Assembly: GCF_022828475.1 (NCBI RefSeq)
Contig: NZ_CP059557.1
Coordinates: 3,395,470-3,459,469, forward strand
Length of the DNA stretch: 64,000 nt
Source of the DNA: Saccharopolyspora gloriosae
GTDB lineage: Bacteria > Actinomycetota > Actinomycetes > Mycobacteriales > Pseudonocardiaceae
Direction of reading: 5' to 3'
Position 1 is the stretch's first letter; each line of letters opens with the position of its first letter. Below are positions 47,137 through 60,244 of this stretch, one piece after another. The translations under genes were made by a program, and so were the position numbers. A model generated the notes under the pieces. The model saw only the letters and a program-made list of their open reading frames with translations, did not search any database and was not told the origin of the DNA.

Positions 47137-48945
47137 CTAGAACCCGCAAGGTGGGGCCGGGTGAAGGAGGCATTCACCCGAGGTGGGGGAGGGACGGAGG
47201 CGGTGGGTGCCGTCGGGCAGGTGTTCGGTGTGACCGGTGCGGGCGAGCAGTTCCAGCAGGGGCACGGCTACTCGGCGGGAGGTGCCGAGGGCCTGGCGGG
47301 CCTGGGAGAGGGTGAAGGGTTCCGGCAGCTCCCGCAGCACCTGCAGCGCACGCCGGTCGGCTCCCGGCAGCAGGAGCACCCCCGGTGCGAGCTGGAGCAG
47401 TTCGCCGGTGCGGACCGCGGCCGCCAGCGGCTCCGCGCCCAAGCCCAGTTCCGCGAGTTCGGCGGCGGTGGGGGCCGCGAACGGAGCCTCGGTGAGCGTG
47501 CGGCGCAGCCGTCGCAATGCCGCGGCGATCTCCGGCGGCCAAGGCGAGGTCCCCAGGCGCAACCGTCCGCCGCCGGTGCGGATCTCACGGGCCGTTCCGG
47601 TGCGCAGCAACGGCTCCAGCAGCGCCGGATCCGGTAGCGCGAGGTCACGCCGGGCCGCCTCGGTGGGCACACCGTCGGCGAGCGGATGCCGCGCGCGATG
47701 CTCGTCGAGCAGCCGCACCAGCCGCTCGGCGAGCTCGTCACGATGTGCCGGGTCGAGCACCCACCCGGCCGCTTCCGCGGCCGCCGCGGGGACTTCCGCG
47801 CCCATCGCGGTCAGTTCGTCGCGCCGGACGAGCCGTCGGCGCCGCAGTTCCGCGGCTCCGTCGGGGACGCCGTCCATGCCCGCCAGCTCACGCGCCCGTT
47901 CTCGCGCCGCTCCGCGGCGCCCCAGCGCCCGCGGGCGCACGTCCAGCAGCACCGCGCCACCGGCGATGTCGTGGGCGCCCGGATCCCGCAGCAGCGCCCG
48001 GTCGCCGATGCGCACCGGCAACGGCTCCCGCAACGACAGCCGCGCGGTGTCCTCGCCCAGCGGCCGGATCCGCGCCGCGACGGCGGCCGAGCCGAGGTGC
48101 AGCATCAGCTGCCGGGGAAGTTCGGCCGCGTCCCGCACCCGCACGTCGAGCAGGTCGCTGCTCAACCACCGGCGCGGGGTGAGCAGCGCGTGTCCGCGCC
48201 CCACCTGCTCCAGCGGTACGCCGCGCAGGTTCACCGCCACTCTCGCCACGGCCGCCACCTCGGCGAGCGGCTCGCCCAACGACTGCAGCGCCCGCACGGT
48301 CACGTCCCGGCCACCGGGCTCCAGCCGCAGCCGATCCCCGGTGCGCAGCGTTCCCGCGGCGAGCGTGCCGGTGACGACGGTGCCAGCGCCGCGGATCGTG
48401 AACGCCCGATCCACCCACAGCCGCACCGCCGCCGCGGCGTCCGGGGCGGGCAGCCGGTCCCCGAGGTCCGCCAGCGCCGCGTGCAACTGCGGCAGGCCCG
48501 CGCCGGTGCGCCCGCTCACGTGCACCACGGGCAGCTCGCCCAGTGCCGAATGTTGCAGCCGCCGCTGCGCCTGCTCGGTCGCGGCGGCGGGATCGGCCAG
48601 GTCGCAACGGGTCACCGCCAGCAGCCCGTGCCGCACCCCCAACGCGTGCAGCGCGTCGAGATGCTCGGTCGACTGGCGCTGCCAGCCCTCGTCGGCGGCC
48701 ACCACGAACAACACCGCCGGTACCGGACCGATCCCCGCGAGCATGTTCGGCACGAACCGCTCGTGGCCGGGCACGTCGACGAACGCCAGCACCTGCTCGC
48801 CGATAGTCGTCCAGGCGAAACCGAGGTCGATCGTCATGCCCCGCTCGCGTTCCTGCGACCAGCGGTCCGGTTCCATGCCGGTGAGCAGCCGCAGCAGCGT
48901 CGATTTGCCGTGATCGACGTGCCCGGCGGTGGCGACGACGTGCAT
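47137..48945 (-). CDS. selB: Selenocysteine-specific elongation factor SelB
   Basis: A 602-residue GTPase. G1 is GHVDHGKSTLLRLLTGMEPD, the switch region ERERGMTIDLGFAW, G3 VDVPGHERFVPNML and G4-like VTRCDLAD. EF-Tu-like barrels follow, then C-terminal winged helices (about 400-590) that bind the SECIS RNA. SelB delivers Sec-tRNA to an in-frame UGA. ATG 48945 shares one base with the selA stop, so the two are coupled. The last 14 residues are not family-like, and the stop codon abuts an IS30-family element, so the original C-terminus may have been slightly altered by the insertion. Confidence 0.93.
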   Translation of the reverse strand: MHVVATAGHVDHGKSTLLRLLTGMEPDRWSQERERGMTIDLGFAWTTIGEQVLAFVDVPGHERFVPNMLAGIGPVPAVLFVVAADEGWQRQSTEHLDALHALGVRHGLLAVTRCDLADPAAATEQAQRRLQHSALGELPVVHVSGRTGAGLPQLHAALADLGDRLPAPDAAAAVRLWVDRAFTIRGAGTVVTGTLAAGTLRTGDRLRLEPGGRDVTVRALQSLGEPLAEVAAVARVAVNLRGVPLEQVGRGHALLTPRRWLSSDLLDVRVRDAAELPRQLMLHLGSAAVAARIRPLGEDTARLSLREPLPVRIGDRALLRDPGAHDIAGGAVLLDVRPRALGRRGAARERARELAGMDGVPDGAAELRRRRLVRRDELTAMGAEVPAAAAEAAGWVLDPAHRDELAERLVRLLDEHRARHPLADGVPTEAARRDLALPDPALLEPLLRTGTAREIRTGGGRLRLGTSPWPPEIAAALRRLRRTLTEAPFAAPTAAELAELGLGAEPLAAAVRTGELLQLAPGVLLLPGADRRALQVLRELPEPFTLSQARQALGTSRRVAVPLLELLARTGHTEHLPDGTHRLRPSPTSGECLLHPAPPCGF

Positions 48946-50231
48946 CAGTCCACCGCCGTGACGGCCGCGAGCAGCACGTCGTCGTCGGCGGGCGCGACCG
49001 CGTACAGGTCCAGCAGGCACTGCCCGCGCTCCACCCTGGCCAGTACCGGAGCGCTCCCGGTGCGCAGTGCCGCCGCGAACCGGGACGGCAGCGTCACCGC
49101 CGCGCTCGGCAACTCGACGCCGGGGGCACCACCGCCGCCGACCGTGGCCGTGCTCGGCTGCGCACCGGCGTCGATGCCGCGTTCCCGCAGCGTGGCGGCG
49201 AGCAGCCGGGCGCGGTCGAGCAGTTCGGCTTCGGACCGTGCCAGCGCCCGCGCGGTAGGTGTCGCGGGGCCGCGCACGCTCGCCTCCAATGCGGCGAGGG
49301 TGAGCTTGTCCACCCGCACCGCGCGCGCCAGCGGATGCCGCTTGAGCAGCCGCACCAGCTCCGCCGAACCGAGCAGCAGCCCGGCCTGCGGGCCGCCGAG
49401 CAGCTTGTCCCCGCTGGCCGTCACCAGGTCGGCCCCGGCGGCGAGGGTGCCGTGCGCGTCGGGTTCGTCCGGCAGGACGGGATGCGCCCGCAGCAACCCG
49501 GACCCGATGTCGACGACCACCGGGACCGGCAGGTCCCGCAGCGCGGCGACCGGAACCTGCGAGGTGAACCCGGTGATGCGGAAGTTCGACGGGTGGACCT
49601 TGAGCACGAACCCGGTCTCCGGTCCGATCGCGTCCCGGTAGTCGTCGAACCGGACCCGGTTGGTGGTGCCCACTTCCCGCAGCCGCGCGCCGGTGGAGGT
49701 GAGCAGGTCGGGGAGGCGGAAACCGTCGCCGATCTCCACGAGTTCGCCGCGGGCCAGCACGATCTCGCGGCCCGCGGCGAGCGCGGTGGCCGCCAGCGCG
49801 AGCGCCGCGGCACCGTTGTTCACCACGTGCGCGTCCTCGGCGGCAGGCACCGACTCGGTCAGAGCGGCGCATGCTGCGCGCCCGCGCGGTCCGCGCCGGC
49901 CGGTCTTGAGGTCGAGTTCCACGTCGGTGGTCCCGGCCGCCGCGCACACCGCTTCCACCGCGGCGTCGGAGAGGGGAGCGCGGCCGAGGTTGGTGTGCAA
50001 CAGGACCCCGCAGGCGTTGACGACTCGCCGCAACCCGCAGGCGGAATCGGGCAGCGCGTCCCGCGCGGCGGCGATCACCTGCTCCGGCGCGAGTTCTCCC
50101 ATCCTGGCGCGACGCTGTGCGTCGTGGACCACGGTGCGGACCACGTCCCGCCCGAGCCGTTCGGCGGCGGTCACCAGCACGGGATCGTCGAGCATCCGGT
50201 CAGTGGCGGGAATCCGGCGCCGCGCGTCCAT
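48945..50231 (-). CDS. selA: L-seryl-tRNA(Sec) selenium transferase SelA
   Basis: A 428-residue PLP enzyme of the SelA family. The N-terminal tRNA-binding region has RRVVNACGVLLHTNLGRAPL, the middle part VNNGAAALALAATALAAGRE, and the PLP lysine lies in VTASGDKLLGGPQAGLLLGS. The C-terminus carries LLDLYAVAPADDDVLLAAV. SelA converts seryl-tRNA(Sec) to selenocysteyl-tRNA using selenophosphate from SelD. It precedes selB with a one-base overlap. The DUF5313 gene lies 54 bp upstream and tRNA-Sec about 540 bp upstream, on the same strand. Confidence 0.95.
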   Translation of the reverse strand: MDARRRIPATDRMLDDPVLVTAAERLGRDVVRTVVHDAQRRARMGELAPEQVIAAARDALPDSACGLRRVVNACGVLLHTNLGRAPLSDAAVEAVCAAAGTTDVELDLKTGRRGPRGRAACAALTESVPAAEDAHVVNNGAAALALAATALAAGREIVLARGELVEIGDGFRLPDLLTSTGARLREVGTTNRVRFDDYRDAIGPETGFVLKVHPSNFRITGFTSQVPVAALRDLPVPVVVDIGSGLLRAHPVLPDEPDAHGTLAAGADLVTASGDKLLGGPQAGLLLGSAELVRLLKRHPLARAVRVDKLTLAALEASVRGPATPTARALARSEAELLDRARLLAATLRERGIDAGAQPSTATVGGGGAPGVELPSAAVTLPSRFAAALRTGSAPVLARVERGQCLLDLYAVAPADDDVLLAAVTAVD

Positions 50232-50285
50232 GCGGCGCAGCCTAGGAGCAGTATCGAAGATCCGCTGGCGTGGTGCGCCGCTCGG

Positions 50286-50687
50286 TCACTGCTCGCCGCG
50301 CCACACGGCCCGGTAGCGAGCGGCGGCGTCGGCGTCCATCTGGTTGCGCACCGCCGAGGCGTGACCGGGCGGGAACCCGTGCCTGCTCAGCCGCGCGTCG
50401 ACGCTCTCGACGGAACTGGTCAGCACGATCCGCAGCACCACGAGCACGCCGAGCAGCACCGCGCCGAGCGCGATCGGCCACGAGCCACCGGCCCAGTACA
50501 GGATCGCGAACATGACGGCGATCAGCGGCAGGATGTGCAGCATTCCGCGCACGCACACCCGCAGCACCCACGTCGAGCACGTCGCGTCCCGCAGCACCCA
50601 CTCGCGGTAGTCGGCGGGCAACGTGCCGCCGAACTGGTAGTACAGCCACCGCGCCGGATTGGGCCGCTTGATCCCCACGCCCAGCAT
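50286..50687 (-). CDS. DUF5313-type small membrane protein
   Basis: A 134-residue protein with KRPNPARWLYYQFGGTLPAD, then REWVLRDATCSTWVLRVCVR, as in the actinobacterial DUF5313 family. Two central membrane segments follow (MLHILPLIAVMFAILYWAGG; IALGAVLLGVLVVLRIVL) and a charged tail (AVRNQMDADAAARYRAVWRG). The function is unknown. ATG 50687 begins the homology; the frame is open to 50735. It sits between tRNA-Sec and selA on the same strand, but the family is also found away from sel genes, so no link to selenium is claimed. Confidence 0.75.
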   Translation of the reverse strand: MLGVGIKRPNPARWLYYQFGGTLPADYREWVLRDATCSTWVLRVCVRGMLHILPLIAVMFAILYWAGGSWPIALGAVLLGVLVVLRIVLTSSVESVDARLSRHGFPPGHASAVRNQMDADAAARYRAVWRGEQ

Positions 50688-50767
50688 GGTAGGCCCTGCC
50701 GCCGAGACCTTCCGCCGGCCCGTCGGCGCAACCACGGACGGCGGCCGGGGCGTCGAGGAGCGCGGAG

Positions 50768-50863
50768 TGGCGGAGGCGGACGGGAATCGAACCCGCCTGA
50801 CCGAGGTGCTCGGCCACGTCGGTTTTGAAGACCGCGGGGGCCACCAGGCGCCCTGACGCCTCC
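50768..50863 (-). tRNA. selC: tRNA-Sec (anticodon UCA), CCA encoded
   Basis: Read on the minus strand, the gene begins GGAGGCG and ends CGCCTCCG-CCA. The anticodon loop is CTTCAAA (UCA, which reads UGA) within GCGGT...ACCGA. A long variable arm (GCCGAG/CTCGGT) and an extended D stem (GGGC/GCCC) are typical of selenocysteine tRNA, and the T arm reads CGGGTTCGATTCCCG. At 96 bases including CCA it has the expected length. It lies between selD and selA. Confidence 0.95.
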
Positions 50864-51026
50864 TTCACCCGCTCCGGGCGGTGCCCAAGGTACGTCGGGA
50901 AACAAACGTGCGCCCGCAGTCTTGCAGGGGGCACCGACCTGAACGACCCCCCTCGTCCTGCCGCGGAGCCCGCGGCGGCGGACTCGCCGGGGGCCGCCCA
51001 CGGCTCGGAATCGTATCCCGGCCCGG

Positions 51027-51140
51027 CGTTCGTTCGTCGTCGGTTCCGGCGCGGAGACGCCGATGGCCGCCTACCCGAAAGTGCGCCTGCACGCCGAGGT
51101 CGAAGGCTCTGACGACATGGATCTGTTCGCCGTACCGGCG
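51027..51140 (+). pseudogene. Possible remnant of a CocE/NonD-type hydrolase
   Basis: The frame reads ETPMAAYPKVRLHAEVEGSD, then DMDLFAVP, before losing coding character. This resembles the start of the C-terminal beta domain of CocE/NonD (X-Pro dipeptidyl-peptidase-like) hydrolases, where a YPKxRL..E..G.DDMDLF pattern is common. Nothing of the catalytic domain is present. The rest of 50864-51256 holds no recognisable gene and must include the selD promoter. Confidence 0.3.
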
Positions 51141-51256
51141 GGCGGTTCCCCTCGTACCTGCAACTTCCGCTCAAAACCGCCTGAAATCCGCGTTCGCCTC
51201 CCACACGGGGGCGGCCGTGGATGCCGGGCGCGACTGGCGGGGCTACGGTCGGTGAG

Positions 51257-52312
51257 GTGACGGAACTCGACGCACCCGCCCGGTATCGGCTCACGCAGTA
51301 CGCGCACGGTGGGGGCTGCGCGTGCAAGATCCCGCCGGGTGAGCTGGAAACCATGGTCGCCGACCTGCGCGGTGTGCCGGACCCGACGCTGCTGGTCGGA
51401 CTGGAGCACGGCGATGACGCCGCAGCGGTCCGCGTCGGTCCGCCGTCGCACGGCACCGTCCCGAGCCCGACCGCACCCGACTCGCCCGCCGCTGGAGGGC
51501 AGGCGGTGGTGAGCACCGCCGACTTCTTCACCCCGGTCGTCGACGACCCCTACGACTGGGGCCGGATCGCCGCGGCGAACGCGCTGTCCGACGTCTACGC
51601 GATGGGCGCGCGGCCGATCCTCGCGGTGAATCTGCTGTGCTGGCCACGCGATCTGCTCCCGCTGGAGCTCGCGCGCGAAGTGCTGCGCGGCGGCCTCGAC
51701 GTCGGCCGTACCGCCGGCTGTCCCGTCGCGGGCGGCCACAGCGTCGACGACCTGGAACCGAAGTACGGCATGGCCGTCACCGGCATCGGCGACCCGGATG
51801 CGTTGCTGCGCAACGACTCCGGGCGTCCCGGCACGCCACTGTCACTGACCAAACCCCTGGGGATCGGGGTGCTCAACACGCGGCACAAGGCGACGGGGGA
51901 GGTGTTCCCGCATGCGGTGTCGGCGATGACCGAGCTCAACGCCACGGCCTCGGTGGCGGCGCGCGAGGCGGGGGCGCGGTGCGCCACCGACGTGACCGGA
52001 TTCGGGTTGCTCGGGCACTTGATGAAACTGGCCAGGGCCAGCGGAGTGTCCGCGGTCGTTGACTCGGCGGCGGTGCCTTACCTGGACGGGGCGCGGGAGG
52101 CGTTGCGTGACGGCCACGTCAGCGGCGGCACCCGGCGCAACCTGGACTGGGTGCGCCCGCACTGCGACCTCACCGCGATCGGCGAGGACACGGCGTTGCT
52201 GCTGGCCGACGCGCAGACCTCCGGCGGATTGCTGGTGGCGGGGGAGATCCCCGGCGCACCCGTCATCGGAGAATTGGTGCCGCGCGCGGAGCAGTGGATC
52301 ACGGTGCGCTGA
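51257..52312 (+). CDS. selD: Selenide, water dikinase SelD
   Basis: A 351-residue selenophosphate synthetase. The active-site segment is YAHGGGCACKIPPGEL; C21 and K24 correspond to E. coli Cys17 and Lys20, so this is the cysteine form, not a selenoprotein. ATP-binding parts include LEHGDDAAAV, STADFFTPVVDDPYDWGRIA and DVTGFGLLGHLMKLARASG. It makes selenophosphate for SelA. GTG 51257 begins the homology with a weak GGTGAG site. It is divergent from the tRNA-Sec/selA/selB unit, so the sel genes form two facing transcription units. Confidence 0.95.
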   Translation: MTELDAPARYRLTQYAHGGGCACKIPPGELETMVADLRGVPDPTLLVGLEHGDDAAAVRVGPPSHGTVPSPTAPDSPAAGGQAVVSTADFFTPVVDDPYDWGRIAAANALSDVYAMGARPILAVNLLCWPRDLLPLELAREVLRGGLDVGRTAGCPVAGGHSVDDLEPKYGMAVTGIGDPDALLRNDSGRPGTPLSLTKPLGIGVLNTRHKATGEVFPHAVSAMTELNATASVAAREAGARCATDVTGFGLLGHLMKLARASGVSAVVDSAAVPYLDGAREALRDGHVSGGTRRNLDWVRPHCDLTAIGEDTALLLADAQTSGGLLVAGEIPGAPVIGELVPRAEQWITVR

Positions 52313-52491
52313 CCCCGGCGATCGTGTGCGTCTCGGCGGATGAATCGCACGTCGGGAGCGCGGACCGCCGCGTCTCACCGCTGCGCGCTGCTGAGCCGGC
52401 CCGGCCCGCGCAGTGCCCACCGCGGATCTGGACCTGGTGGGTGTCGCGCTGCACGAGGGGCGCAACGCGGTCGACAAGGTGTGCAAGGGAC
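52313..52491. other. Gap between convergent selD and TetR genes
   Basis: A coding-like + strand segment from about 52413 reads ADLDLVGVALHEGRNAVDKV and then CKGLSLHP, ending at 52508 inside the 3' end of the TetR gene. It has no start and no recognised family, so it may be a gene fragment. No terminator hairpin was identified. Confidence 0.3.
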
Positions 52492-53154
52492 TCAGCTTGC
52501 ACCCGTGAACGCGGCGCCGGTCTCTTCGGTGGCAGTCCGCAGGCCCGCGGCCGTCTCGTCGAGGAGACCGGCGAGGATGTCCGGCAGCGAGGTGCCGTCG
52601 GTGCGCACCAGCCATTCCCGCATCGCCGAGCCGAAGCACGTCATCATCAGCATCGCCCACGTGTACAGCCGCGGCTCGGGGCAGGACCCGTCGCCGCAGT
52701 GCTCGGCGAGGGCCGCCGCCACGTCGTGCACCCAGCGCCGGTGCATCAAGTGGGACTCGTATTCCCCGGTGGCCTCCAGCGAGTCCAGCAGCTGCGCGCG
52801 CATCAGGTGCTGCCGGCGGTCGGCCTGGATCCGTTCGGCCGTGTCGAACATGGCCGCGGCGAGCTTGCGCATCGGATGCTCCCCGGCGGGCCTGGACAGC
52901 AGCACTTCGCGGAGCCGCTCTTGCTCGCGCAGGTGGTCGCCGAACAGGACGGCGTCCTTGCTGGGGAAGTGGCGGAAGAAGGTGCGCGGCGCGATGTCGG
53001 CGGCCTCGGCGATCTGTTCCACGGTGGTGGCGTCGAAGCCCTGCTCGGTGAACAGCCGCAGCGCCGCCTCCTCGATGCCCGCGCGGGTGCGCGCGGTCCG
53101 GCGCCGACGGCGGTCGGCGGGCTCGGCGGGGGAGTGGACGGGTGCGGCGGTCAT
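52492..53154 (-). CDS. TetR-family regulator
   Basis: A 220-residue repressor. The N-terminal helix-turn-helix region is TRAGIEEAALRLFTEQGFDA followed by TTVEQIAEAADIAPRTFFRH and FPSKDAVL. The C-terminal ligand domain is helical and specific to this protein. It is divergent from the DHA2 exporter at 53274, the classical arrangement in which the exporter's substrate relieves repression. ATG 53154 is chosen; the open frame reaches a TTG at 53190. A TGTCA-N4-TGACA dyad sits in the shared promoter region. Confidence 0.88.
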   Translation of the reverse strand: MTAAPVHSPAEPADRRRRRTARTRAGIEEAALRLFTEQGFDATTVEQIAEAADIAPRTFFRHFPSKDAVLFGDHLREQERLREVLLSRPAGEHPMRKLAAAMFDTAERIQADRRQHLMRAQLLDSLEATGEYESHLMHRRWVHDVAAALAEHCGDGSCPEPRLYTWAMLMMTCFGSAMREWLVRTDGTSLPDILAGLLDETAAGLRTATEETGAAFTGAS

Positions 53155-53199
53155 GCGACCCAGGTTCACCTGGAGTTCGGGGAACGTCAACGGTGACTG

Positions 53200-53232
53200 A
53201 TGTCATGAGTGACAAATGGCAGTACTGACATA
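53200..53232. promoter_or_regulatory. Candidate TetR operator/promoter
   Basis: The dyad TGTCATGAGTGACA (53201-53214) is followed by AGTACTGACAT, giving repeated TGACA/TGTCA half-sites. It lies between the TetR gene and the exporter gene, where both promoters must be. Confidence 0.45.
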
Positions 53233-53273
53233 ACGTGGGCGGGTAAGTCGTACGCGCCAACTGAGGAGATCTC

Positions 53274-54944
53274 GTGTCCGGTACCAACCCCGAGTCGGCT
53301 TCGGGCGGTGCGCACCCCACCGTCGACGGCCCGGCCACCGAAGGCGAGCGCCGCGCCGCCGCCGACGGCATCGACCTGGGGGTTTATCGCCGCCGCTGGA
53401 CCACGTTGCTGGTCCTGTGCCTGGCGTTGTCGGCGACGATGCTGGCGAACACCTCCCTCGGTGTCGCGCTGCCGTTCCTGTCGCAGGACCTCGGCTCGTC
53501 GTTGTCGGACCAGCAGTGGTTCAGCAACGCCTACGCGCTGGTGTTCGCCGGGCTGCTGTTCACCACCTCGACGCTGGCCGACCGCTACGGGCGCAAGCTG
53601 ATGCTGCAGGCGGGGCTCATCCTGTTCGGCACCGTATCGCTGTACGTGTGGCTGTTCGTGGGCTCCAGCGCGGAGCTGATCGCCGCGCGCGGCCTGCTCG
53701 GCCTCGGCGGCGCGATGATCATGCCTGTGACGCTGTCCATCCTGACCAGCGTGTTCCCCAGCTCGGAGCGGACCAAGGCCGTCGGGGTGTGGGCCGCGGT
53801 CTCCGGCGCGGGCACCGCGCTCGGCCCGGTGATCGCCGGGCTGCTGCTGGAGTTCACCACCTGGCACGCGGTGTTCGCGATCAACATTCCGGTCGTGGTG
53901 GTCGCCGTCATCGCGGGCATCCGATACGTGCCGAAGAACGCGGGCAGCGCGGCCCCCGCCGAAGGCGGCCACGGTGGCATCGACATCGGTGGCGCGATCC
54001 TGTCCACCGCGGGCATCACCATCGTCGTCTACGGCCTCATCGACGCCCAGCACGTCGGCTGGACCGCCCCGCGCACGCTGATCATGGTCGCGGTGGGCCT
54101 GGTGCTGATCGGGCTGTTCGTGCTGTGGGAGCGCCGGGCGAAAGACCCGATGCTGGACATGAACCTGTTCCGCAATGCCGGGTTCTCCGCGTCGGCGGTC
54201 GCGCTGACGCTGGTGTTCTTCGCGATGATCGGCGTGTTCTTCTCGCTGAGCCAGACCCTGATCCTGGTGTTCGGCTACTCCCCGCTGGGCTCCTCGGTGG
54301 CCATGCTGCCGATGTCGATCATGATGGTGCTGGTGGCCCCGCAGGTCGCAGGCATCGTGGAGCGGTTCGGCCCGCGTGTCACCATCGCGGCCGGCCTGGT
54401 GCTGGCCGCCGCGGGCATGGCCGGTCTGAGCACGCTGCGGGTCGACTCCGGGTACTGGCACCTGTTGTTGCCGTTGGCGCTCACGGCGGGCGGCATGTCG
54501 CTGGCGATGGCCCCGGCCACCGACCAGCTGATGGCCAACGTCCCGCGCGAGCGCGCGGGCATGGGCTCCGCCACCAACGACGTGACCCGTGAGGTCGGTG
54601 CCTCGCTGGGCGTCGCGGTGCTCGGCAGCGTGCTCGGCAGCAGCTACGCGAGCCACCTCGGCCCGGCGGTCGCGGGCCTGCCCGAGGACGTGCGGGCGAT
54701 GGCCGAGCAGTCGCTGCCCGGTGGCCTGCAGGTCGCGGCGTCGCTGGGGCAGCAGGGCGCGGGCCTCGCACAGCAGGTGATGACCTCGTGGATGAGCGGC
54801 ATGCAGTTCGCGAACCTCGCCGGAGCGGGGCTGATCCTGGCCGCCGCGCTGGTCGCGTGGATCTGGATGCCCCGCAAGGCCGCGCACACCGTCTCCACCG
54901 AACACCACGAGCAGGAGGAGTCCGCCGAGAACGTGAGCGGCTGA
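53274..54944 (+). CDS. MFS transporter, 14-helix DHA2 (EmrB/QacA) family
   Basis: A 556-residue exporter with about 14 membrane helices. Motifs are TMLANTSLGVALPFLSQDLG, LADRYGRKLMLQAGLILFG, ARGLLGLGGAMIMPVTLSIL and AVSGAGTALGPVIAGLLLE. The C-terminal tail is charged and Glu-rich. It should extrude drugs or toxic metabolites using the proton gradient. GTG 53274 follows GAGGAG. It is divergent from a TetR regulator and lies between selD and the formate dehydrogenase operon, apparently an unrelated insertion in the selenium block. Confidence 0.92.
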   Translation: MSGTNPESASGGAHPTVDGPATEGERRAAADGIDLGVYRRRWTTLLVLCLALSATMLANTSLGVALPFLSQDLGSSLSDQQWFSNAYALVFAGLLFTTSTLADRYGRKLMLQAGLILFGTVSLYVWLFVGSSAELIAARGLLGLGGAMIMPVTLSILTSVFPSSERTKAVGVWAAVSGAGTALGPVIAGLLLEFTTWHAVFAINIPVVVVAVIAGIRYVPKNAGSAAPAEGGHGGIDIGGAILSTAGITIVVYGLIDAQHVGWTAPRTLIMVAVGLVLIGLFVLWERRAKDPMLDMNLFRNAGFSASAVALTLVFFAMIGVFFSLSQTLILVFGYSPLGSSVAMLPMSIMMVLVAPQVAGIVERFGPRVTIAAGLVLAAAGMAGLSTLRVDSGYWHLLLPLALTAGGMSLAMAPATDQLMANVPRERAGMGSATNDVTREVGASLGVAVLGSVLGSSYASHLGPAVAGLPEDVRAMAEQSLPGGLQVAASLGQQGAGLAQQVMTSWMSGMQFANLAGAGLILAAALVAWIWMPRKAAHTVSTEHHEQEESAENVSG

Positions 54945-54995
54945 CCTCCACACCCGGCGATCGGGGTCGCCGGAGCGGGATCGTGCTCGGTCAGC

Positions 54996-55007
54996 GGGAT
55001 CTTTCGG
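54996..55007 (+). promoter_or_regulatory. Candidate DevR-type operator before the fdh operon
   Basis: GCGGGATCTTTCGGGGG contains GGGATCTTTCGG, close to the GGGACCTTTGGCC found before devR. It lies about 100 bp before the fdhA start, a suitable place for activator binding. A visual match only. Confidence 0.3.
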
Positions 55008-55101
55008 GGGCTCGCTGAGCTTGCGTCGATCACACGGCGGGTGTCCCATGGGCCGAGTCCCATGAGGCACCCGCCGTTGTCGTCGCGGGAGGAGGGCGCC
55101 C

Positions 55102-58100
55102 ATGCCGCAGTGGCTGAACTGGCCGGTGCTCCGCCAGCTGAGCGGCCCCGACGGGCTGGGGCGCGGCACCGCGGCACGATCCCCGCGCACCGAGGCGCTG
55201 CGATCCCGCACCGAGCAGGCCGACGAAGTCGTGCGATCGGTGTGCCCGTACTGCGCGGTGGGCTGCGGGCAGCAGGTGTTCGTGCGCGACGGCGAGATCA
55301 CCCAGATCGAAGGTGACCCGGACTCGCCCATCAGCCGCGGCAGGCTGTGCCCGAAGGGGTCCGCGAGCCGCGAACTGGTCACCTCGCCCGGCAGGCAGAC
55401 CAAGATCCGCTACCGGCGCCCGCACGGCACCGACTGGGAGGACCTGGACCTCGACACCGCGCTGGACATGATCGCCGACCGCGTGCTGGCCACGCGGGAC
55501 GCCACCTGGCAGCAGGCCGACGACCAAGGCCGCCCGCTGCGCCGCACCATGGGCATCGCGAGCCTCGGAGGAGCGACCCTCGACAACGAGGAGAACTACC
55601 TCATGAAGAAGCTCTACACCGCCCTGGGCGCGATCCAGGTGGAGAACCAGGCGCGCATTTGACACTCCTCCACGGTTCCCGGTCTGGGGACCTCGTTCGG
55701 GCGCGGAGGGGCCACGACCTTCCTGCAGGACCTGGCCAACGCCGACTGCATCCTCATCCAGGGCTCCAACATGGCCGAGGCGCACCCCGTCGGCTTCCAG
55801 TGGGTGATGGAGGCGAAGCGGCGCGGGGCCACGGTGATCCACGTCGATCCGCGGTTCACCCGCACCTCCGCCGTCGCCGACCGGCACGTGCCGTTGCGCG
55901 CGGGCAGTGACATCGCGTTCCTCGGCGGCCTGATCCACCACGTGCTGGAGAACGACGCCTACTTCCACGACTACGTCGTGAACTACACCAACGCCGCGAT
56001 GATCGTCGGTGCCGAGTTCGAGGACACCGAGGACCTCGACGGCGTGTTCTCCGGTTTCGACGCCACCGAAGGCGCCTACGATCCGGCGAGCTGGCAGTAC
56101 GAGGGGACGCAGGCGATGCCCGCGGTGGCCGGGCACGGCCCGGAGAGTTCGCCCGGCCGCGGCGAACCGAAGTCCACCGCGCACGGCCGGGAACGGGCGC
56201 GCAGCGGCCCGGAGCGCGCGGGCTCGGGCGGTCCCGTCTACCACGGCGAACCGGAGACCGACCCGACGCTGCGTCACCCGCGGTGCGTGTTCCAGCTGCT
56301 GCGCAAGCACTTCGCTCGCTACACCCCGGACATGGTCGAACGGGCCTGCGGCGTGCCCGCGGCGGAATTCCTGCGCGTGGCCGAGGCGCTGACCGCCAAC
56401 TCCGGACGCGAACGCACCAGCACCATCGCCTACGCGGTCGGCTGGACGCACCACACCGTGGGCGTGCAGTACATCCGCGCCGCTTCGATCCTGCAGCTGC
56501 TGCTGGGCAACATCGGCCGCCCCGGCGCGGGAATCCTCGCGCTGCGCGGACATGCGAGCATCCAAGGCTCCACCGACATCCCCACGCTGTTCAACCTGCT
56601 GCCCGGCTACATCCCGATGCCGCACGCGCACACCGACCACGACCTGGAGTCGTTCGTCGCGCAGGACGAGAACGCGCGCGGCTACTGGGGGAACATGCGC
56701 TCCTACGTGGTGAGCCTGCTCAAGGCCTGGTGGGGCGAGGCGGCGACCCCGGACAACGACTTCCGCTTCGACCACCTGCCCCGCCTCACCGGTGATCACG
56801 GCAGCTTCCAGACGGTCGCCGACCAGATCGACGGGAAGGTCAAGGGCTACTTCGTGATCGGGGAGAACCCGGCGGTGGGCTCCGCCAACGCACGCCAGCA
56901 GCGAATGGGGCTGGCGAACCTGGACTGGCTGGTGATCCGCGACCTCAACATGATCGAAACCGCGACGTTCTGGCGGGACGGCCCGGAAATCGAGAACGGC
57001 GAACTGTCCACGGAGGACATCGGAACGGAGGTGTTCTTCCTGCCCGCCGCCGCGCACACCGAGAAGGACGGCACGTTCACCAACACCCAACGGCTGCTGC
57101 AATGGCACCACAAAGCCGTCGAACCCCGCGAAGACCAGCGCAGCGACCTGTGGTTCTACTACCACCTCGGTCGCAGGCTCCGGGACAAGCTCACCGCGCG
57201 ACAGCCGCAGCGCAGCGCCGGGCAACGGGAACGCGACCGCGCGCTGCTGGACCTCACCTGGGACTACCCGACCCACGGCGACCTCGACGAGCCGAGCGCG
57301 GCGGCGGTGCTGCGCGAGATCAACGGCACCGACGAGACCGGCGCCGCCCTGCCCGGATACGCGCGGCTGAAATCGGACGGATCCACCTCCTGCGGCTGCT
57401 GGATCTACAGCGGCGTGTTCGCCGACGAGATCAACCAGTCCGCCCGCCGCAAACCGGGCCACGAGCAGAGCTGGGTCGCCCCCGAATGGGGCTGGGCATG
57501 GCCCGCGAACCGGCGCACCCTCTACAACCGCGCCTCCGCCGACCCGCAGGGGAGGCCCTGGAGCGACCGCAAGGCCTACGTCTGGTGGGACGCCGACGCG
57601 CAGGCGTGGACGGGGCACGACATCCCCGACTTCGACAAGAACAAGCGCCCCGACTACCGGCCCGCCGCCGACGACGCCACCGGTCCCGCGGGCATCGCGG
57701 GCACCGATCCGTTCATCATGCAGAGCGACGGCCGCGGCTGGCTCTACGTCCCCGCGGGCCTCGTCGACGGCCCGCTGCCCGCGCACTACGAACCGCAGGA
57801 ATCGCCGCTGGCCAACCCGCTGCACGACCAGCAGCGCAACCCCGCCCGGCAGACCTATCAGCGCCCGGAGAACCGCTACCAGCCCAGCGGGGCCGAACCC
57901 GGCGCCGAGGTCTACCCGTACGTGTTCACCACGTTCCGGCTCACCGAGCACCACACCGCGGGCGGCATGAGCCGCTGGCTGCACCACCTCGCCGAACTCG
58001 CACCGGCGATGTTCCTGGAGGTCTCCCCGGAACTCGCCGCCGAACGCGGCCTCGAACACCTCGGCTGGGCCACCGTCGTGACCGCCCGCAGCGCCATCGA

Positions 58101-58416
58101 AGGCAGAGTGCTAGTGACTCGCCGGATCCGGCCGCTGCGCTTCGGCGACCGCACCCTGCACCAGATCGGCCTGCCCTGGCACTGGGGACCGAACGGGCTG
58201 ACCACCGGAGACGCCGCGAACGAACTGATCGGCGTGTCCCTGGACCCGAACGTGCACATCATGGAGACCAAGGCGGGCACCTGCGACATCCGGCCCGGCC
58301 GCCGCCCACGCGGCCCGGCGCTCGCCGCCTACGTCGCCGACTACCGCAGACGGGCCGGCATCACCGACCGCACCGGCACCGAACACGCCGACGATCCCCG
58401 CGAGAGCGGGAGTTGA
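55102..58416 (+). CDS. fdhA: Formate dehydrogenase catalytic subunit, selenocysteine-containing
   Basis: A 1104-residue molybdopterin enzyme if the in-frame TGA at 55660-55662 is read as selenocysteine (residue 187). Both halves are in one frame and join as NQARI-Sec-HSSTVPGLGTSFGRGGAT, the usual active-site context. The N-terminus binds a 4Fe-4S cluster through C48, C51, C55 and C83 (VCPYCAVGCG, GRLCPKG). Molybdopterin segments follow, ending with a C-terminal guanylate domain (GLPWHWGPNGLTTGDAAN). There is no Tat signal, so it is probably cytoplasmic. It oxidises formate to CO2. ATG 55102 follows GGAGGAGGG. fdhB and a NrfD-type subunit follow. Confidence 0.93.
55660..55700 (+). promoter_or_regulatory. 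SECIS element with Sec UGA codon
   Basis: After the UGA (55660-55662), GGT-T-CCC (55674-55680) pairs with GGGACC (55687-55692), leaving a bulged U at 55677 and the loop GGTCTG. The loop sequence, bulge and distance from UGA (bulge at +15) are the same as recalled for the E. coli fdhF SECIS. SelB should bind here. Confidence 0.85.
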
Positions 58417-58430
58417 GAGGGAGTGACGTC

Positions 58431-59321
58431 GTGGCCGACCGGACCGAGCAGCACCGCCTCAGCGGCCCGCTGGCCGACCCCGCCGCGGACGCCGGGTACA
58501 CCGGCCACCCCGAGCGCGTCGGGTTCTTCACCGACACCAGTGTGTGCATCGGCTGCAAGGCGTGCGAAGTGGCGTGCAAGGAGTGGAACCTGCTGCCCGC
58601 GGACGGCATGGAGCTCACCGGCATGTCCTACGACAACACCGGCGACCTCGGCGCGAGCACCTGGCGGCACGTGGCGTTCGTCGAGCAGGAGGTGACCACC
58701 ACCGACCTCGGCATGCCGGGAACGGGACCGCCCGGCGCGGAGGGTGACGGCGGCGTGCGGTGGCTGATGTCCTCCGACGTGTGCAAGCACTGCACCCACG
58801 CCGCCTGCCTCGATGTGTGCCCGACCGGCGCGCTGATCCGCACCGAGCACGGCACCGTGCTCGTCCAGGACGACATCTGCAACGGCTGCGGCTACTGCGT
58901 GCCCGCCTGCCCCTACGGCGTGATCGACATCCGGCCGGGCGACGGCGGGGCGTTCAAGTGCACGATGTGCCAGGACCGGCTCGGCGCCGGTCTCGCCCCG
59001 GCCTGCGCCACGGCGTGCCCCACCGAGTCCATCCAGTTCGGGCCGCTCGACGAACTCCGCGAACGCGCCGCCCTCCGCGTCGACGAACTGCACGAGCGCG
59101 GGGAGACCGGGGCTCGGCTCTACGGCCACGAGCCCGACGACGGCGTCGGGGGAGACGGGGCCTTCTTCCTGCTGCTCGACGAACCGGAGGTGTACGGCCT
59201 GCCACCGGATCCGGTGGTGACCACCCGGGACCTGCCGTCGATGTGGCGCCACGCCGGTGCGGCCGCGGGCGCGGCGGCGGTGCTCATCGCGGCCTGCTTC
59301 GCCGGAAGCTCGCGGCGATGA
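58431..59321 (+). CDS. fdhB: Formate dehydrogenase iron-sulfur subunit
   Basis: A 296-residue ferredoxin-like electron-transfer subunit with four 4Fe-4S cysteine groups: CIGCKACEVACKEW, CKHCTHAACLDVCPTGAL, CNGCGYCVPACPYGV and CTMCQDRLGAGLAPACATACP. A single C-terminal membrane helix (HAGAAAGAAAVLIAACFAG) may anchor it. It passes electrons from FdhA to the membrane subunit. GTG 58431 has GAGGGAG seven bases upstream and lies 14 bp after the fdhA stop. Its own stop overlaps the next ATG. Confidence 0.93.
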   Translation: MADRTEQHRLSGPLADPAADAGYTGHPERVGFFTDTSVCIGCKACEVACKEWNLLPADGMELTGMSYDNTGDLGASTWRHVAFVEQEVTTTDLGMPGTGPPGAEGDGGVRWLMSSDVCKHCTHAACLDVCPTGALIRTEHGTVLVQDDICNGCGYCVPACPYGVIDIRPGDGGAFKCTMCQDRLGAGLAPACATACPTESIQFGPLDELRERAALRVDELHERGETGARLYGHEPDDGVGGDGAFFLLLDEPEVYGLPPDPVVTTRDLPSMWRHAGAAAGAAAVLIAACFAGSSRR

Positions 59322-60244
59322 GCCCCCGTCGTGGCGCCGAGTCGGTGGTACCGGACGCCGAATTCCGCTCGTACTACGGCCGCCAGATCATCAAGACCCC
59401 GACGTGGAAGGTGCCGGACGTTCCGGCGTACCTCTTCCTCGGCGGCCTCGCCGGTGCCTCCGCGACCATGGCGGCACTGGCTGACCTGACGGGACGGCCC
59501 CGGCTGCGCAGATCCGGGCTGCTGGCCGCGGCGACCGGCGCGGGCGCCAGCGTCATCGCGCTCGTCCACGACCTGGGCAGGCCCGCCCGGTTCCTGAACA
59601 TGCTGCGCGTGATCAAACCGACTTCCCCGCTCAGCGTCGGCTCGTGGATCCTCGCGCCGTTCTCCGGAGTGGCCGCGGCGGCCGCCGCCAGCGAGGTCAC
59701 CGGGCTGCTGCCCCGCCTCGGCAGGCTCAGCGGGGCGCTGTCCGGTCTGGTGGCGCCCGCGATGACGACCTACACGGCGGTGCTGCTGGCCGACACCGCG
59801 GTGCCCGGCTGGCACGAGGTGCACCGTGAACTGCCGTTCGTGTTCGCGGGCAGCGCCGTGTCCACCGCGGGCGGCATCGCGCTGCTGACCGTGCCCACCG
59901 ACGAGGCCGGACCGGCGCGGCGCATGGCGGTGGCGGGAGCGGCCCTGGAACTGGCCGCGGAGGAACTCATGCTGCGCGACGCCGGCCTGGTCGCCGAGGC
60001 CTACCGCACGGGCGCACCGGGTACGGTGCTGCGCGCGGCGAAAGCGCTGACCTGCGCGGGAGCCGTGGTGGTCGCGGTGGCGGGACGGAATCGGCGCATC
60101 GCGGCGGCAGCGGGCCTGTGCCTCGGCCTCGCAGGGGCCGCCACCCGCTACGGCATCTTCGAAGCCGGACGGGTCTCAGCTCGTGACCCGAAGTACACGG
60201 TCGTCCCGCAGCGGCAACGGCTCTCCCGCACCGAGCCGGAGTGA
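59318..60244 (+). CDS. NrfD/PsrC-type membrane subunit of formate dehydrogenase
   Basis: A 308-residue integral membrane protein with about eight helices. The start reads EFRSYYGRQIIKTPTWKVPD before the first helix (VPAYLFLGGLAGASATMAAL); HDLGRPARFLNMLRVIKPTS is the conserved loop of the NrfD family. It probably passes electrons from FdhB to menaquinone, replacing the cytochrome b subunit of FdnI-type enzymes. The ATG at 59318 overlaps the fdhB stop (ATGA), so the operon is fdhA-fdhB-nrfD. FdhD and FdhE maturation genes are not in the window. Confidence 0.9.
   Translation: MSPRRGAESVVPDAEFRSYYGRQIIKTPTWKVPDVPAYLFLGGLAGASATMAALADLTGRPRLRRSGLLAAATGAGASVIALVHDLGRPARFLNMLRVIKPTSPLSVGSWILAPFSGVAAAAAASEVTGLLPRLGRLSGALSGLVAPAMTTYTAVLLADTAVPGWHEVHRELPFVFAGSAVSTAGGIALLTVPTDEAGPARRMAVAGAALELAAEELMLRDAGLVAEAYRTGAPGTVLRAAKALTCAGAVVVAVAGRNRRIAAAAGLCLGLAGAATRYGIFEAGRVSARDPKYTVVPQRQRLSRTEPE

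Follow-up and report, generated by a model that had tools for sequence, protein, structure and literature searches.

A stop codon that appears to be read as selenocysteine in a formate dehydrogenase gene of Saccharopolyspora gloriosae

Described selenocysteine-containing formate dehydrogenases

Among bacterial selenoproteins, formate dehydrogenase (FDH) alpha subunits and SelD have been described as the most widespread, and the accessible part of the same source reports sel genes lying near, or in one operon with, the FDH alpha gene (PMC5029168). In Actinomycetospora chiangmaiensis DSM 45062, three selenocysteine (Sec)-containing FDH systems are reported and formate removal depends on selenite; the part of that report available to us gives FDH1 as a membrane-bound enzyme with Sec in its alpha subunit (1078 residues), together with beta and gamma subunits, and lists SelA and SelB with the cluster (PMC7176365). 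A full protein set for selenocysteinyl-tRNA is stated for S. erythraea (PMC2206050, in the text available), and in Geodermatophilaceae Sec at UAG codons, together with a CUA tRNA, has been reported (PMC5330540, likewise).

The locus analysed here lies in a window of 64,000 nucleotides, by which we mean the whole stretch of DNA under study. Actinomycetospora and Saccharopolyspora are placed in the same NCBI family and, compared by published description, the locus is like A. chiangmaiensis FDH1 in having a predicted Sec alpha subunit with sel genes nearby, whereas one close FDH gene with an in-frame TGA was found in this genome as against the three Sec FDH systems described in the available text for A. 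chiangmaiensis (PMC7176365). The UAG-Sec FDH of Geodermatophilaceae type is an orthologous gene with the same active-site codon position and the same hairpin (locus L034 and 11 of 80 named loci), but it goes with a CUA tRNA, as seen in the one tRNA examined (genome G050), where the window has UGA with UCA. Annotators already know the actinobacterial FDH family, for which NCBI maintains a model, NF041513; FdhA from the window matches positions 4 to 1067 of its 1067 positions, and no distinguishing feature was seen in this comparison. A Sec FDH beside sel genes is a known arrangement, present here in another species.

The fdhA reading frame and the fdhABC operon

The DNA sequence suggests that this soil actinobacterium produces a formate-oxidising enzyme in whose gene one stop codon is decoded as selenocysteine, the 21st amino acid. 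We put at about 95% the probability that the product of fdhA is the catalytic subunit of a molybdenum FDH linked to the membrane (FdhA, FdhB and NrfD-like FdhC) and that its residue 187 is selenocysteine inserted by SelB/SECIS decoding. This reading is built on gene structure, homology, conservation of a hairpin and the presence of decoding genes that co-occur with fdhA; molybdenum as the metal and delivery of the formate electrons to the membrane are predicted from known families. The features are collected in Table 1.

Table 1. Features of the selenocysteine-decoding and formate dehydrogenase cluster (window positions)
Feature	Position	Strand	Basis
selB, Sec-specific elongation factor	47137..48945	-	TIGR00475 274 bits (cut-off 242); Pfam SelB winged helix and beta-barrel domains
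selA, selenocysteine synthase	48945..50231	-	TIGR00474 410 bits (cut-off 268)
tRNA-Sec, anticodon UCA	50768..50863	-	ARAGORN; Rfam RF01852 72 bits (gathering score 47)
selD, selenophosphate synthetase; Cys, not Sec, in the active-site motif; start mechanically chosen	51221..52312	+	TIGR00476 366 bits (cut-off 125)
fdhA, formate dehydrogenase alpha subunit, 1104 residues, predicted Sec at 187	55102..58416	+	ORF, NF041513, TIGR01553
In-frame TGA, predicted to be read as selenocysteine	55660..55662	+	TGA in 32/60 genomes and 67/80 named loci
Predicted SECIS hairpin	55667..55709	+	Rfam SECIS_3 match, conservation, covariation
fdhB, iron-sulfur beta subunit	58431..59321	+	Best model FDH-beta, 177 bits (below cut-off 335)
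fdhC, NrfD-type membrane subunit	59318..60244	+	Pfam NrfD 41 bits (cut-off 25.8)

From its ATG, the fdhA frame contains only two stops, the TGA at codon 187 and the terminal TGA (58414-58416). A mechanical ORF list reports the gene as two pieces, 55102-55662 (186 aa) and 55771-58416 (881 aa), just as the preliminary description had said a gene caller would. Its proposal of a single FDH gene split by an in-frame UGA is borne out, as the frame is open on both sides and the two halves adjoin on NF041513, the 186-aa half covering positions 4-185 and the 917-aa half positions 187-1067 (model length 1067). G+C content at codon positions 1/2/3 is nearly equal 5' (0.688/0.516/0.935) and 3' (0.686/0.509/0.923) of the TGA, and hence both sides look coding and in one frame. 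What follows is chiefly a matter of annotation, in that fdhA should be called as a single selenoprotein of 1104 residues. One might instead take the UGA for a true stop after which the second half restarts, for example at ATG 55771, to give a two-piece enzyme, since both halves are ORFs with start codons. However, that start loses the conserved HSSTVPGLGTSFGRGG directly after the TGA, which is present in orthologues, Cys orthologues run unbroken across the codon, and the SECIS hairpin and the sel genes would be left unexplained, so that we consider a two-piece enzyme very improbable.

The joined FdhA scores 1966 bits against NF041513 (actinobacterial formate dehydrogenase, cut-off 1400). Its earlier attribution to the FdhF/FdnG family stood for FdnG, with 926 bits against the FDH-N alpha model TIGR01553 (cut-off 814), but not for FdhF, with 341 bits against TIGR01591 (cut-off 666). 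The Pfam domains PF04879, PF00384 and PF01568 (4Fe-4S, molybdopterin and dinucleotide-binding) were each found above cut-off, and cysteines 48, 51, 55 and 83 are compatible with a 4Fe-4S site. In a search of solved structures, FdhA aligned over two long stretches both with PDB 1kqf (E. coli FDH-N, FdnGHI; E 4e-204) and with PDB 1h0h (E 2e-212), the latter presumably from Desulfovibrio gigas, residues about 336-380 lying between the two aligned stretches. The Sec motif is in register with 1h0h, residue 187 standing opposite the X of QARIXHS, which we take to be Sec, and the Arg of IRAAS in FdhA is aligned with IRAMS of the same structure. The TGA is followed by CAC (His) in 93/93 distinct TGA genes; we assume that Sec or Cys, the next His and the conserved Arg have active-site roles in FDH. 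No twin-arginine motif was seen by eye at the FdhA N-terminus.

FdhB falls under the FDH-beta cut-off and the third gene encodes an NrfD-type protein, not a cytochrome b gamma subunit; the alpha subunit is therefore FdnG-like in an operon that is not FdnGHI. The NrfD-type subunit occupies the place where FDH-N has cytochrome b, which we take to be its gamma subunit, and FdhC gave no NCBIfam match. A gene for FdhD, an FDH maturation factor, is found elsewhere in the same genome (158.5 bits, cut-off 140.9).

Selenocysteine-decoding genes and the hairpin 3' of the TGA

Together with fdhABC, the genes selB, selA, tRNA-Sec(UCA) and selD form one cluster at 47137-60244, in which the selB ATG overlaps the selA stop. 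The bacterial Sec-decoding trait (selA, selB, selD and tRNA-Sec) is thus complete, each component scoring over its curated cut-off. Going by the roles known for their families, SelD would provide selenophosphate, SelA would convert Ser-tRNA(Sec) to Sec-tRNA(Sec), and SelB would bring the latter to the ribosome and bind the hairpin just 3' of UGA 55660, which would then be decoded in this strain as Sec and not as stop. Formate oxidation via FdhA should, on this prediction, require selenium. Between selD and fdhA (52492-54944) lie a divergent TetR-like regulator (minus strand) and a DHA2-like MFS transporter (plus strand), for both of which the NCBIfam matches shown are under curated cut-offs.

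The hairpin 3' of the TGA is the predicted SECIS element. Its apical stem pairs 55674-55680 with 55686-55692 around the loop GGUCU (55681-55685), and its lower stem pairs 55667-55671 with 55705-55709; the middle pair of this lower stem is not general. Rfam SECIS_3 matches at 55657-55718 with 35.7 bits (E 5.1e-5), below the gathering score of 63. The preliminary description had pointed to this hairpin, which is indeed present, conserved and covarying. In folding energy, however, it does not surpass shuffled sequences (three stretches, with z 0.00, 0.65 and 1.69), and for this reason pair counts were used as evidence instead. On the 30 distinct rows among 33 Sec-type rows from relatives, 93.3% of cells were paired and the covariation score was 0.180 versus 0.103 in 500 shuffles, none of which scored as high, whereas sliding the structure by 1 to 3 columns left just 46-66% paired. 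For two of the five measures the observed value was also reached by shuffles, namely pair changes on both sides (2; 162/500) and further pair types (9; 117/500). Imposed on the five Cys rows, the same structure was at chance level (53.3% paired versus 55.2% in shuffles). In the named loci, which overlap partly with the relatives from the 60 genomes described below, the six apical pairs 28-44 to 33-39 are formed in 66/66 distinct Sec rows, pairs 27-45 (36/66 rows) and 22-60 (13/66 rows) are not general, and the loop reads GGTCT in 50 rows, AGTCT in 10 and AGTTT in 6. A scan with the 33-row hairpin model gave the FDH site as the sole match in its own genome at E <=0.001, a result that applies to hairpins of this type, selenoproteins with different ones being possible.

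Distribution among relatives and codon context

We compared 60 genomes including the window's own, a set weighted towards the genus and family, with no correction for kinship. At the orthologous codon, TGA stands in 32 genomes, including 6/6 of the genus, TAG in one (G050) and TGC in five; a further genome (G033) has a divergent FDH with QARV-TGA-HG and a hairpin model match of 58.9 bits, and the remaining 21 have distant matches only, or none. The earlier remark on the rarity of selenoproteins in this order was not upheld in this sample, as 34/60 genomes have a Sec-type FDH of this kind; the same weighting applies here, and the order used in the genome sampling may extend beyond the one that NCBI defines. 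Both selA and selD occur in 34/34 Sec-type genomes, 1/5 Cys-type genomes and 4/21 without the gene (34/34 versus 5/26 others, Fisher p 8e-12, uncorrected for kinship); 4/5 Cys orthologues are accordingly in genomes without the pair. tRNA-Sec of at least 60 bits was found in 33/34, 1/5 and 4/21 genomes, respectively, the one Sec-type genome without it being G048 (82% complete, 440 contigs). The 60-bit line is our own, placed in the gap from 64.2 to 51.5 bits, and was chosen because the Rfam cut-off also let in other tRNAs, one of them a tRNA-Ser in G050. selB scored above cut-off in 35/60 genomes and was omitted from the co-occurrence table because its model also matches other elongation factors.

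Of 587 relatives in named genomes, 80 loci were retained, with TGA in 67, TAG in 11 (Blastococcus, Geodermatophilus and Modestobacter) and TGC in 2. The closest of these 80 is Saccharopolyspora sp. NFXS83 (94% identity). Near the gene in the 46 TGA loci longer than 23 kb, selA was found in 32, selB in 29, selD in 26 and tRNA-Sec in 22. One FDH that occurs with UGA, UAG or a Cys codon at this position, with and without sel genes, offers a natural series of retention, exchange and loss of a Sec codon.

These data bear on two further explanations of the in-frame TGA. Near-cognate tRNAs, such as that for Trp, can read through UGA, and the codon might be passed in this way without Sec insertion. 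Against this stand the tRNA-Sec(UCA), selA and selB genes adjoining fdhA, the occurrence of selA and selD in every Sec-type genome, and the Sec-type tRNA of the UAG genome G050, whose anticodon CUA matches its codon; we give ordinary read-through as little credence as the two-piece enzyme. Least probable of all, and rejected, is a pseudogene, a Cys-type gene whose TGA would be due to nonsense mutation or faulty sequencing, for although Cys orthologues exist (5/60 genomes, 2/80 named loci), the identical TGA recurs in 32 genomes, the SECIS is kept after the TGA and missing from Cys genes, and coding composition is intact on either side. The preliminary description had named Cys homologues combined with a TGA error, or a lack of SelB-dependent read-through, as what would speak against Sec at this codon; the recurrent TGA and the presence of selB speak the other way, and the orthologues, conserved hairpin and adjoining sel genes all support its assignment of Sec.

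Four genomes of the same family or order (G007, G021, G044 and G046) have tRNA-Sec, selA and selD, and in them neither a close relative of the FDH nor a SECIS-model match was found; one would expect these genomes to encode other selenoproteins, unless the FDH gene is absent from the assembly. G040 (L043, L157), a fragmented assembly, has a Cys-type FDH yet carries tRNA-Sec, selA and selD, with a piece of selB at a contig end. In G008, two tRNA-Sec genes above cut-off lie on contig C1, at 1034947-1035037 and 2955760-2955850, one near FDH and selA and the other near selB.

The codon preceding the Sec codon (window 55657-55659) was surveyed in 110 distinct FDH loci, with the other Ile codons, counted over a stretch beginning 150 codons upstream and ending at the following stop, as background. 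In the 93 distinct TGA genes it is ATT in 74, GTT in 13, ATA in 4 and ATC in 2, while in the background of TGA genes 3421/3536 Ile codons (97%) are ATC. Before TAG it is ATA in 11/11 distinct genes (background ATC 385/394), and before the Cys codon GTG or GTC in 6/6 Cys genes. The bias has a binomial p of 2e-112 with shared ancestry ignored. It is conceivable, though we lean somewhat against it, that the recoding signal of actinobacterial FDH genes includes the base directly 5' of the Sec codon, and that this base was retuned when the codon changed; if so, P-site codon context would be under selection for Sec decoding besides the SECIS. Pairing of the -1 base with tRNA base 37 was considered as a cause and rejected: on visual inspection, the UCA tRNA of the window and the CUA tRNA of G050 both carry A at base 37, and since U(-1) can pair with A37 and A(-1) of UAG genes cannot, no common explanation results. 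We found nothing on the 5' context of Sec codons in the parts of the literature available to us; an account may exist elsewhere.

A second selD, of Cys type, lies in the same genome outside the window (L167:6991-13270), where it is closely packed with genes for an acyl-CoA dehydrogenase, a nucleotidyltransferase and a phosphoglycerate-mutase-like metalloenzyme (apgM and PhpG matches below cut-off) and with a propionate/acetate-CoA-ligase-like gene. This run may be an uncharacterised selenophosphate-using pathway. Two selD genes occur in 3/60 genomes (G000, which is the window's own, G004 and G005), with the metalloenzyme gene about 0.7 kb after the second selD in all three, and G052, which has one selD, carries a relative of the metalloenzyme (63%) with an inner TAG.
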